Shown here piece by piece: positions 6,587-10,599 of a stretch of 11,655 nucleotides of DNA; position 1 is the stretch's first letter; each line of letters opens with the position of its first letter. Location of the stretch: positions 1 to 11,655 of the forward strand of contig JAITAT010000106.1 in NCBI GenBank assembly GCA_031283975.1, written 5' to 3'. The translations under genes and the position numbers were made by a program. A model generated the notes under the pieces. It saw only the letters and a list, made by a program, of their open reading frames with translations, did no database searches and was not told where the DNA came from. Origin of the DNA: Synergistaceae bacterium (GTDB lineage Bacteria > Synergistota > Synergistia > Synergistales > Synergistaceae).

Positions 6587-6598
6587 AATTTTTTCAAA

Positions 6599-6606
6599 CC
6601 CCCCCC
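6599..6606 (-). repeat. G8 homopolymer in the hppA leader
   Basis: Eight consecutive G on the minus strand lie 12 bases before the hppA ATG, the only purine-rich stretch where a ribosome-binding site would be expected. The following TTTGAAAAAATT is AT-rich. Runs of this length are prone to slippage, which here would change leader spacing but not the reading frame. Confidence 0.6.
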
Positions 6607-6667
6607 GATTTTGACCTGTACTGCGAAAGTGAACCGCGCGTAAAGCTGTTTCAAAAATTCAGAACAG

Positions 6668-6696
6668 TGTATATTCTAACATCAATTTATTGAAAA
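6668..6696 (-). promoter_or_regulatory. Candidate promoter for hppA
   Basis: In the 95-base gap before hppA the minus strand has TTTTCA (6696-6691) and TATACA (6673-6668) with a 17-base spacer, each 4 of 6 matches to the sigma-70 consensus. It would give a leader of about 75 bases ending at the hppA ATG. The -35 box lies inside the last codons of the truncated lpd gene. This gap is AT-richer than the flanking genes. I recognise no riboswitch in the leader. Confidence 0.35.
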
Positions 6697-7263
6697 GATG
6701 TTTTTCGGAGGGAGAAAATGCAACCCCTCAATCTTTGGAGAGTTAATTGACAAGGCTTCGCGGCTCGTCATGGCATACCCCGATTCCAAGGATTCGACGA
6801 GACCTTCGATGGGCGGTGTGACGGCTTGCGATCCGGAGGCTATCAACAATTTTCGCGCTTCGTATATCCCTCCGCCCGATATCACCGCAAAACCGGAATC
6901 TGTTTTGCCCGAAATCACGGCTTCGCCGGAGATAACAGCGACGTTTTTCGACTTCATCCTGGACGCTACTCCGCTCACCAAGGTTTTTACGACTTTTTCC
7001 TTCCTTTTCATTACCGCCTGATGATCCAGCCGCGCGTTTTCGACAGTGACTCCGTAGGGCGCTCCGTGCGCAGCCCTGTCCAGCAGTTTGGCCGAGTAAA
7101 GCATCGTCTTTGTCGGGATGCATCCTTCGTTGAGACAGACGCCGCCCAGTTTGTTTTCTTCAAAGAGCGCGACCTTCATGCCGCCGTCCGAGGCCCGTTC
7201 CGCCGCTACATATCCTGCCGGGCCGCCGCCGATGATTATGAGGTCGAAATTTGACGTCGTCAT
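6682..7263 (-). pseudogene. lpdA: Dihydrolipoamide dehydrogenase, truncated after the FAD half
   Basis: Full-length Lpd (about 460 residues) reoxidises dihydrolipoamide in the pyruvate/2-oxoacid dehydrogenase and glycine cleavage complexes. Only 193 residues are present. The FAD-binding Rossmann start (DLIIIGGGPAGYVAAE, 7-21), the redox disulfide Cys42/Cys47 in GGVCLNEGCIPTK, and the FAD-domain stretch to LLIASGSQAVTPP and the TSREALSI segment are normal. Resemblance stops about where IGGGYIG, the NAD-binding glycine loop, should follow; instead an unrelated tail (LHFLPPKNIFSIN) leads to TGA. The NAD domain, central domain and dimer interface with the catalytic His-Glu pair are absent, and the 95 bases before hppA are too short to hold them. 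It starts inside the purE stop (ATGA overlap). A 3' deletion is the simplest reading; an assembly join or a functional flavin-domain remnant remain possible. Lpd activity is not expected. Confidence 0.82.
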
Positions 7264-7787: not shown

Positions 7788-9073
7788 TCCTCACTCCATC
7801 CTATATCCCGCCTGTAGTGCATGTCGCCGAAAGTAATCCCGGCAACCCGGGCATAAGCGTTTTTTCGGGCGGCGGCGAAATCGTCGCCCGTGCCGACTAC
7901 GGACAGAACTCGGCCTCCGCTGGTCACTATCTCTCCTTCGTCGTTTTTGGCCGTGCCGGCATGATAAACGAAAGTACCGGCCGGAGCGCTTTCATCGCCC
8001 AACCCGGAAATGACCATGCCCTTGCGGAATTTTCCCGGATATCCTCCGGAGGCCATCACCACGCAGAACGCGTGCCCGCCGTATTCAGCTTCGGAGCGGC
8101 CACGGAGCGCACCTTCCGCCGCGGACAGCGCCAGTCGGCCGAAATCTTCGCGGAGCAGCGGCAGAACGGACTGCGTCTCCGGATCCCCGAACCTGACGTT
8201 GTACTCGACCACGGAAATTTTAGTCTCATCGCCGGTTTCGATGAGCATGAGACCCATGTATATTACGCCGCGGTATTCTATACCCTCCGAAGCGAGCCCG
8301 GACAATGTGGGCCTCATCACCTCGTCCGCCGTGCGCTGCGGTATACATACCGGAAGGCGCACTGGCGAATAAGAACCCATTCCGCCGGTGTTCGGCCCCT
8401 TGTCCCCGTCGTATACCCGCTTGTGGTCGCGGCTTGGCGGGAGAAGTCTGAACGATTTTCCGTCGGTCACCGCCAGAACGGTCAATTCATACCCCGGCAG
8501 GTAGTCCTCTATTATCAGTGTGCGGCCGGATTCTCCGAGCGTTTCCCCTGACAGAAGACCTCGGCATATTTTCATGGCTTCCCCGGCGTCGTCCGGCAAA
8601 AAGACTCCCTTACCGGCCGCCAGACCGTCCGCTTTTATGACGAACGGCGGTTTCCGTTTAGCGAGCGCCGCGGCGCAGCCGTCCTCGGAATGGCATACAT
8701 CGAACGGCGCGGTTGGGATACCGTGGCGCTTCATGAAGCCTTTGGCAAAGGCCTTGCTGCCCTCCAGCCTGGCTCCTTCTGCGCCAGGGCCGAATACCTT
8801 TATTCCGGCGCCGCGCAGCGTGTCGGACAGTCCTACGACCAGCGGCGCCTCGGGCCCTATCAGGACGAACCTTATCCCGTTCTTTTCGCAGAGCGCGAGT
8901 ATCACCTCCGCGTCGCACGGGTCGGCGTCGTGTATTCGCGCCAGTTCAGCTATCCCCGGATTGCCCGGAGCGCAGTGAATTTTCCCTATGACGTTAGATT
9001 TGGACAGGGCGTGGACTATGGCGTGTTCGCGCCCGCCGCCTCCCAAGACTAAGGCGTCGTTTTTTTCGCCCAT
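7784..9073 (-). CDS. purD: Phosphoribosylamine-glycine ligase (GAR synthetase)
   Basis: PurD joins glycine to 5-phosphoribosylamine using ATP, the second step of de novo purine synthesis. The 429-residue length is typical. The N-domain begins with LVLGGGGREHAI (8-19) and has GPEAPLVVGLSD. The ATP-grasp part has FVIKADGLAAGKGV, the acidic and RDHKR motifs of LLPPSRDHKRVYDGDKGPNTGGMGSYSP, and the Mg2+ ligands in VVEYNVRFGDPETQ. A C-terminal domain completes the fold, and no residue I checked is missing. No Shine-Dalgarno site precedes the ATG; the start lies 2 bases after the ancestral purH stop (TAG at 9078-9076), suggesting translation by coupling or reinitiation. The premature TAG in purH moves termination 165 bases away and could lower purD expression. 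The 3' end overlaps purE. Confidence 0.97.
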   Translation of the reverse strand: MGEKNDALVLGGGGREHAIVHALSKSNVIGKIHCAPGNPGIAELARIHDADPCDAEVILALCEKNGIRFVLIGPEAPLVVGLSDTLRGAGIKVFGPGAEGARLEGSKAFAKGFMKRHGIPTAPFDVCHSEDGCAAALAKRKPPFVIKADGLAAGKGVFLPDDAGEAMKICRGLLSGETLGESGRTLIIEDYLPGYELTVLAVTDGKSFRLLPPSRDHKRVYDGDKGPNTGGMGSYSPVRLPVCIPQRTADEVMRPTLSGLASEGIEYRGVIYMGLMLIETGDETKISVVEYNVRFGDPETQSVLPLLREDFGRLALSAAEGALRGRSEAEYGGHAFCVVMASGGYPGKFRKGMVISGLGDESAPAGTFVYHAGTAKNDEGEIVTSGGRVLSVVGTGDDFAAARKNAYARVAGITFGDMHYRRDIGWSEE

Positions 9074-9075
9074 GA

Positions 9076-9240
9076 CTAGTGTCTGAATGTGCGGGTACCG
9101 CCGACGAACATGCTGATACCCAGTTCCAGCGCGCGTTTTTCGACTTCCTCGTCTCTTATCGAGCCGCCTGGCTGGATTATGGCCGTCACGCCGGCCGCCG
9201 CCGCCAGTTCCACCGTGTCTGGGAAGGGGAAGAACGCGTC
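9076..9240 (-). pseudogene. purH: Severed C-terminal 54 codons of purH
   Basis: Immediately after the TAG at 9243-9241 the same frame continues for 54 codons with unmistakable PurH sequence: [17 protein letters not shown], then [13 protein letters not shown] and the terminal GGTRTFRH, ending at TAG 9078-9076 just before purD. In this family the segment forms part of the folate/AICAR site of the transformylase domain (the FPF-x-D, QPGGS and terminal Arg elements). No ribosome-binding site or suitable start codon is visible after the break, so independent translation is unlikely. The lack of any further lesion suggests the break is recent, is read through, or is a sequence error. Confidence 0.9.
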
Positions 9241-10599
9241 CTACGCCATCACCGAACCTTTGGCTTTATCACCCGCCATCTCTATGGCGCGCCTCGCCGC
9301 GTCCACCCTGTTGGTGAATCCGCCGCCTATGCCAACGCTGGCGCTTTCGGAGGCCAGCACTATGGCGTTGCTCTTTACGAGACTGGCCGTTCTCCACGCG
9401 AACAGCATGTCGCTCCACAGATCGGGGCGCGCGCGGCTCACCCATTTGCCCCCGCTCTGCGACGGAGGCGGCGGGAGTGTCTCCGACTGCACCAGGAACC
9501 CCGCCCTGTTGCCGATGATTTGCTCGCGGGGCGTATAGCCGCCGGTTATAGTTAGTACACGCAGATTGTGCTTCGACGATTTCAAAAATTCTATGGCTTC
9601 CGGCGTTATCTCCGGAGCAGCCAATATCTCGTAAAAATGTTCCGCAATCCGTTTCGCGAGCGGCAGATCGACTCCGCCGGTGAAGCCTACTATGCCCCCA
9701 AAAGCGGAAACGGAGTCGCAGGCGAGCGCGCGTTCGTAAGCGTCGGTTTCATTGCCGCCCTCCGCGACGCCGCATGGCGTCGTATGTTTTACTATGACAC
9801 AGGCGCATGTTTCCCTGAAAATCGCGCCGCCTTTCAGCAGAGTGTCGAGATCCAGCAGGTTGTTGTAGGACAGTTCCTTGCCGGAGTGCTGGACAAAGGG
9901 TGGGTTCGAGAGAGTCGGCATGAAGAGCGCCGCACTCTGGTAAGGATTCTCGCCGTATCTCAGTTTTTGCGCGCGCCGTAGCGGAAGCGTCATTTCATCC
10001 TCATCTCCGCCGGTATATCCGAGGGATTCTTTCAGCCCTTCATGTATCGTGGCGTCGTAAGAGGCGGTTTTCAAAAATGCCTTGATCGCCAGATCGCGGC
10101 GCGTCTCCCTCGTAACTCCCCCGTTTTCGAGCGCGCGTGCGAAGGGTTCGTAGTCGGACGGGTCGGTTATCACCGCGACGCTGGCATAGTTTTTCGCCGC
10201 CGCCCGTATCAAGGAGACGCCTCCGATGTCGATTTTTTCTATCAGTTCATCCTCCTCGGCGTTTTTGCGCGCCGTCTCCTCGAAGGGGTAGAGCGTGCAA
10301 ACGACGACGTCTATCAGCGGTATGCCGTGTTTGACGCGGTCACGCTCGTCGTCCGCGTGTCCACGCCTCGCCAGTATGCCGCCCATGATCTTAGGGTGCA
10401 GCGTCTTGACTCGGCCGCCCAATATCGATGGCGTGCCGGTGATATCGAGCACCTCCGTGACTTCTATCCCGTTCGAGCGCAAATGCGCGGCGGTACCCGA
10501 GCTGGATACCACCTCGTAGCCGGCCTTGACGAGAGCGCGGGCCAGCTCCGTTATTCCTTCCTTGTCCCACACGGATATAAGGGCTTTTGGTTTTTCCAT
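9241..10599 (-). CDS. purH: Bifunctional AICAR transformylase/IMP cyclohydrolase, interrupted by in-frame TAG
   Basis: PurH performs the last two steps to IMP: formyl transfer from 10-formyl-THF to AICAR, then cyclisation. The N-terminal MGS-like cyclohydrolase domain is complete (ALISVWDKEGI, SSSGTAAHLR, GRVKTLHPKIMGG, VVCTLYPFE, IDIGGVSLIRAAAKN, to about 200). The transformylase domain follows, with RYGENPYQ (family usually PHQ), the catalytic Lys-His in VKHTTPCGVA, and SNAIVLA with GIGGGFTNRVDAARRA. After 452 residues the frame hits TAG at 9243-9241, where the family reads GSVLASDAFFPF; one C-to-A change in a TCG serine codon explains it. Restored, the protein would be 507 residues, the normal size. 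As written, transformylase activity should be lost; the cyclohydrolase domain might still fold. TAG also ends hppA and hisB here, so general TAG reassignment is unlikely. A strong GGGAGGTGG site (10610-10618) precedes the start. Confidence 0.93.
   Translation of the reverse strand: MEKPKALISVWDKEGITELARALVKAGYEVVSSSGTAAHLRSNGIEVTEVLDITGTPSILGGRVKTLHPKIMGGILARRGHADDERDRVKHGIPLIDVVVCTLYPFEETARKNAEEDELIEKIDIGGVSLIRAAAKNYASVAVITDPSDYEPFARALENGGVTRETRRDLAIKAFLKTASYDATIHEGLKESLGYTGGDEDEMTLPLRRAQKLRYGENPYQSAALFMPTLSNPPFVQHSGKELSYNNLLDLDTLLKGGAIFRETCACVIVKHTTPCGVAEGGNETDAYERALACDSVSAFGGIVGFTGGVDLPLAKRIAEHFYEILAAPEITPEAIEFLKSSKHNLRVLTITGGYTPREQIIGNRAGFLVQSETLPPPPSQSGGKWVSRARPDLWSDMLFAWRTASLVKSNAIVLASESASVGIGGGFTNRVDAARRAIEMAGDKAKGSVMA

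Follow-up and report, generated by a model that had tools for sequence, protein, structure and literature searches.

An in-frame TAG codon in purH of a Synergistaceae draft genome, very probably a private stop and not a recoded codon

An amber codon inside purH with an undamaged frame behind it

Why does the purH gene of this Synergistaceae bacterium carry a TAG in the middle of a frame that continues, undamaged, to the usual end of the gene? The window, by which we mean the whole stretch of 11,655 nucleotides that was analysed, is the entire contig C9, which belongs to a draft genome (G000) of 1,318,508 bases in 267 contigs, 63.13% complete and 1.64% contaminated. On its minus strand lie eno (cut by the contig end), a gene for an S4-domain protein, rpoD, dnaG, hppA, a truncated lpd, purE, purD, purH, hisH and hisB; the names of purH and lpd were checked against NCBIfam, and most of the others come from a reading of the sequences.

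Translation of positions 9076 to 10599 on the minus strand gives 452 residues, a stop, a further 54 residues (beginning DAFFPF and ending RTFRH) and a second stop. The gene is thus 452 codons long as written, and would comprise 507 codons and a terminal stop if read through. The first-pass annotation had reported an amber codon within purH, an intact 54-codon tail behind it and a normal gene end beside purD, and the translation bears this out: the TAG is codon 453 (9243-9241), codons 454 to 507 (9079-9240) follow in the same frame and are conserved in the homologue alignment, and purD starts at 9073. The terminal stop of purH (9078-9076) is also TAG, a point absent from the earlier annotation.

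The frame behind the TAG is not a product of chance, because the read-through sequence matches PurH across 507 residues; it is 87% identical to the gene of a related genome, G001, which has a serine codon at this site and no stop. Read through, it also aligns to the last residue with the solved PurH relatives 3zzm and 4ehi, and the gene has the domain order and the neighbour, purD, of bifunctional PurH (TIGR00355, NF002049). What sets it apart from that family is codon 453, a stop: the protein of 452 residues passes NCBIfam NF002049 (480.8 bits; cut-off, 402) but misses TIGR00355 (414.7 bits; cut-off, 528), and what is encoded as written is not a full bifunctional PurH with a complete tail. 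The IMP cyclohydrolase half is intact despite the TAG. The Pfam AICARFT match spans codons 134 to 440 and so ends 5' of the stop, at about codon 440; the domain model is therefore no proof of lost activity. We take the segment behind the TAG to contribute to the AICAR transformylase site. A literature search for the residues of this site (including Arg588) found no open paper that gives them, and the accessible portions of PMC10461232 and PMC10912719 hold nothing on the PurH tail.

Codon 453 and the tail in related genomes

A search of 60 genomes returned a purH match, some of them to partial genes, in 55, and G000 alone has a stop inside the match. From the best 120 of 8000 scored proteins we aligned the 110 that are 490 to 530 residues long, leaving out three short homologues and seven fusions of 709 to 712 residues; among these listed matches, serine occupies the position of codon 453 in every one of the 110 aligned proteins. 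A scripted reading of the codon itself gave serine at 25 of 28 gene loci. The script misread the other three (L003, L017 and L025); of these, L003 alone, the G001 gene, was re-read, as a serine codon. The stop is thus absent from relatives, as a nonsense allele would have it, and the earlier expectation that serine is the usual residue here was correct. The comparison with closely related genomes, which that annotation had suggested, places the stop in one assembly. The proposal that a single base change created the stop is supported: TAG is one base from the G001 serine codon.

An intact copy from the same species was sought as well, and none is nearly identical; the closest among the best 120 of 8000 scored proteins is 92% identical. 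The nearest PurH proteins among named genomes belong to the Synergistaceae metagenome-assembled genomes (MAGs) Nc350_bin37 (87% identical) and Roe453_bin29 (78%). In the accessible part of PMC11707648, Roe453 is the lower termite Roisinitermes ebogoensis. A termite-gut origin is likely for the group around G000, and G000 itself may share it. G001 has two purH genes, on contigs C68 (L193) and C47 (L180), which share 87% and 78% identity with the query; the second may be explained by the 7% contamination of that MAG. The three short homologues among the 120 listed have 435 to 437 residues, and one of them, P0065, resembles the copy of another genome (G010) that stops at a contig end.

Conservation of the tail bears on the age of the stop. 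In the alignment of 110 homologues, the tail keeps all 16 invariant columns and all 25 columns with at least 95% conservation, and the body departs from consensus at 1 of 182 columns conserved to at least 95% and 1 of 96 invariant columns, residue 388 in both cases. Against G001, Nei-Gojobori estimates are dN 0.101 and dS 0.70 for the tail, on 54 codons only, and dN 0.066 and dS 0.597 for the body, which suggests that the tail is slightly less constrained. Because the tail is conserved much as the body is, the TAG should be a recent change, an error or a codon that is read through. Six genomes (G011, G016, G033, G037, G046 and G054) gave nothing closer than distant homologues, and in these the tail is the stretch with the best score, a sign of its importance to the PurH family.

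These observations also bear on whether the 452-residue protein might be functional as it stands, either as a shortened PurH or as a cyclohydrolase only. Its IMP cyclohydrolase half and its Pfam AICARFT match (134-440) are intact, but the tail is present in all 110 aligned homologues (themselves chosen at 490 to 530 residues) and is what distant homologues retain best in the six genomes above; we regard a functional short form as very unlikely.

The 120 bases from the TAG onward fold with a z score of −0.36, and 70 of 200 shuffles are at least as stable. We rejected an RNA element 3' of the stop, since the fold is no better than that of the shuffles and dS of the tail is not lowered.

TAG as a stop codon and pyrrolysine decoding in the genus

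The TAG might instead be read as a residue, through pyrrolysine insertion, by an amber-suppressor tRNA or by leaky readthrough, in which case PurH would be full-length. If this were true, a bacterial housekeeping enzyme of purine synthesis would contain pyrrolysine or a suppressed residue. The constraint on the tail, of the same kind as that on the body, is in keeping with such decoding, and the genus does contain pyrrolysine users: 3 of 11 genomes (G003, G006 and G008) have PylS above the cut-off and, in the same three genomes, tRNA-Pyl. In-frame TAG codons occur there in methylamine methyltransferases. MttB is found in 7 of the 11 genomes, with one TAG-bearing copy each in G003 and G006, and MtmB in 2 of the 11 (G003 and G008), with one TAG-bearing copy each. 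The purH of G000 resembles these genes (mtmB, mttB) in having an in-frame TAG within a conserved frame.

The resemblance ends there. PurH is not a methylamine methyltransferase, and the TAG is not conserved: the pyrrolysine users that have purH (G003, L007; G008, L010) carry serine codons at this site, so it is not a conserved pyrrolysine site. Neither tRNA-Pyl nor MttB nor MtmB was found in the 63% complete G000, and its only PylS-like match reaches 25.3 bits, where the cut-off is 178; similarly weak matches turn up in other genomes that lack the cassette and in control genomes. The relatives with closer PurH proteins (G001, G007, G004 and G002) likewise have no PylS above the cut-off and no tRNA-Pyl. 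None of the 13 tRNA genes found in G000 has a CTA anticodon, in a tRNA set that is incomplete, as is the genome at 63%. The fold 3' of the TAG is unremarkable, as described above.

TAG is also an ordinary terminator in this genome. On 61 of the 267 contigs of G000, it ends 29 of 195 open reading frames of at least 200 codons (15%), purH among them, and in 60 stretches of G001 it ends 49 of 230 long frames. The first-pass annotation had noted that hppA and hisB of the window end in TAG and had considered a global reassignment of the codon unlikely. Both statements hold: hppA ends in TAG, as does the hisB frame (at 11324-11322), and global reassignment is very unlikely, since TAG would then be rare or absent as a stop, which it is not.

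Taken together, we consider decoding of the TAG as a residue improbable. Because G000 is 63% complete, the assembly may lack a pyrrolysine cassette that the organism has; that an unassembled cassette or an amber-suppressor tRNA gives full-length PurH by reading this codon has, in our view, only a very slight chance. The earlier annotation had pointed to suppressor tRNAs and pylT/pylS as places to look. No suppressor is among the 13 tRNA genes recovered from the 63% complete genome; pylT/pylS turned up in three of the 11 genomes of the genus, and G000, at that completeness, gave no tRNA-Pyl and no PylS above the cut-off. Of the four options that it had left, suppression and pyrrolysine decoding are thus unsupported in G000 (63% complete), and a nonsense mutation and a sequence error remain.

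The pyrrolysine users themselves are of more interest than the purH stop, and with such organisms in the genus, amber codons of this group deserve to be checked individually. G003 has the full set above cut-offs (tRNA-Pyl, PylSc, PylB, PylC, PylD and PylSn), adjoining a TAG-bearing mtmB. At this locus (L219, contig C7, 6696-13283), mtmB with its in-frame TAG, tRNA-Pyl, pylSc, pylB, pylC, pylD and pylSn stand in a row; the two mtmB pieces, taken alone, matched no NCBIfam model. In G008 (L220, contig C77, 8277-8349, with L047) and G006 (L221, contig C126, 5569-5641, with L046), pylS has tRNA-Pyl nearby. The accessible part of PMC6778437 names a few bacterial genera with pyl genes and has Synergistaceae only among contaminants; a term search of PMC11363022 found no mention of Synerg* or termite. 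Our literature search met no paper on pyrrolysine in Synergistaceae, and we make no claim that the subject is unpublished.

Nonsense mutation, consensus error and the purine pathway

Very probably, then, codon 453 is a private nonsense codon that arose by one base change and is not recoded, whether the base is a real mutation or an error. The gene looks like an ordinary nonsense allele in a MAG or an error in the consensus of one (the stop occurs in one assembly only and is one base from the G001 codon, and the rest of the gene is undamaged), and we found no feature that differs. A nonsense codon is favored because the stop occurs in G000 only, all 110 aligned homologues have serine, TAG is an ordinary stop and the 63% complete genome gave no TAG-reading tRNA among 13 tRNA genes and no pyrrolysine machinery. 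As to whether the base is real, which we infer, we judge a recent one-base mutation private to this strain to have about an even chance.

The other possibility, that codon 453 of the organism is in truth an ordinary serine codon, that its PurH is normal and that the consensus or assembly is wrong here, falls somewhat short of even and is nearly as likely as mutation, because the draft is fragmented (63% complete, 267 contigs) and the same contig carries a truncated lpd at a join. The match of this lpd (window 6596-7263) to the 461-residue lpd of G001 stops after residue 175; by blastn, the window tracks the G001 contig with lpd down to about 6758 and the G001 contig with hppA from about 6596. 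The junction may have arisen by deletion, by rearrangement or in assembly, and it lowers trust in the contig; a real rearrangement there would remove this argument for error. The difference in purH is C to A on the strand of the gene. Changes of this type are common in oxidative damage of DNA samples. The intact purD and purE and the undecayed tail fit an error as well as they fit a recent mutation.

Counting against error, purH is the only such stop recognised on 61 of 267 contigs, by a scan with a sensitivity of about 41%. This codon-usage scan took in stops with 40 open codons on either side and would notice 3475 of 8497 internal sites. It flagged 12 of 1291 stops in 317,366 bases of G000 and 7 of 1521 in 405,290 bases of G001; purH had the top score in G000 (0.33; next, 0.23). 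The other 11, judged by eye, mark the ends of genes or belong to chance frames: the hisB/hisH and dnaG/rpoD boundaries account for two, and nine resemble neighbouring genes or chance frames. The assembly is therefore not full of such stops. Genome-wide decay is likewise unsupported on these 61 of 267 contigs at about 41% sensitivity. In a two-way tblastn with the G001 sample, 15 queries in either direction had a match that reached 60% identity or more. Two rows were flagged for G001 against G000, purH and an upstream-extended open reading frame in the purD frame, which we read as a shadow frame. In the opposite direction, two stretches of G001 (L184, 8340-9944, and L177, 2100-2753) are 62 to 63% identical to open frames of G000 but have six and two stops, and are pseudogenes or shadow frames.

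If the base is real, serine codon 453 was replaced by TAG through one base change, translation would stop at residue 452, and the AICAR transformylase half would lose its final 54 residues. The IMP cyclohydrolase domain would remain in the truncated protein, transformylase activity would very probably be gone, and the cell would then depend on purine salvage. De novo purine synthesis would have been lost only recently, in a genus in which purH has perhaps been lost elsewhere. As a finding, the purH stop is ordinary. It shows how a clean in-frame stop before a conserved tail in a draft genome mimics recoding, and that relatives and reads are to be checked first.

The rest of the pathway is partly visible in G000. 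The purD and purE frames are open, and part of purL is present (positions 218 to 710 of 718), a fragment that scores below the cut-off. The first-pass annotation had raised a second AICAR transformylase such as purP. We rejected this: G000, 63% complete, has one PF01808 match, and PurP was found in none of the 11 genomes of the genus, G000 included. PurH was not found in G006 (95% complete) or G009 (72% complete), which makes loss of purH in the genus plausible and loss of purine synthesis conceivable; G006 keeps purL. Elsewhere among the 120 listed homologues, seven proteins of 709 to 712 residues (P0075, P0091, P0097, P0108, P0111, P0118 and P0119) carry a PF00551 formyltransferase domain in addition, so that two purine steps are fused in one protein.
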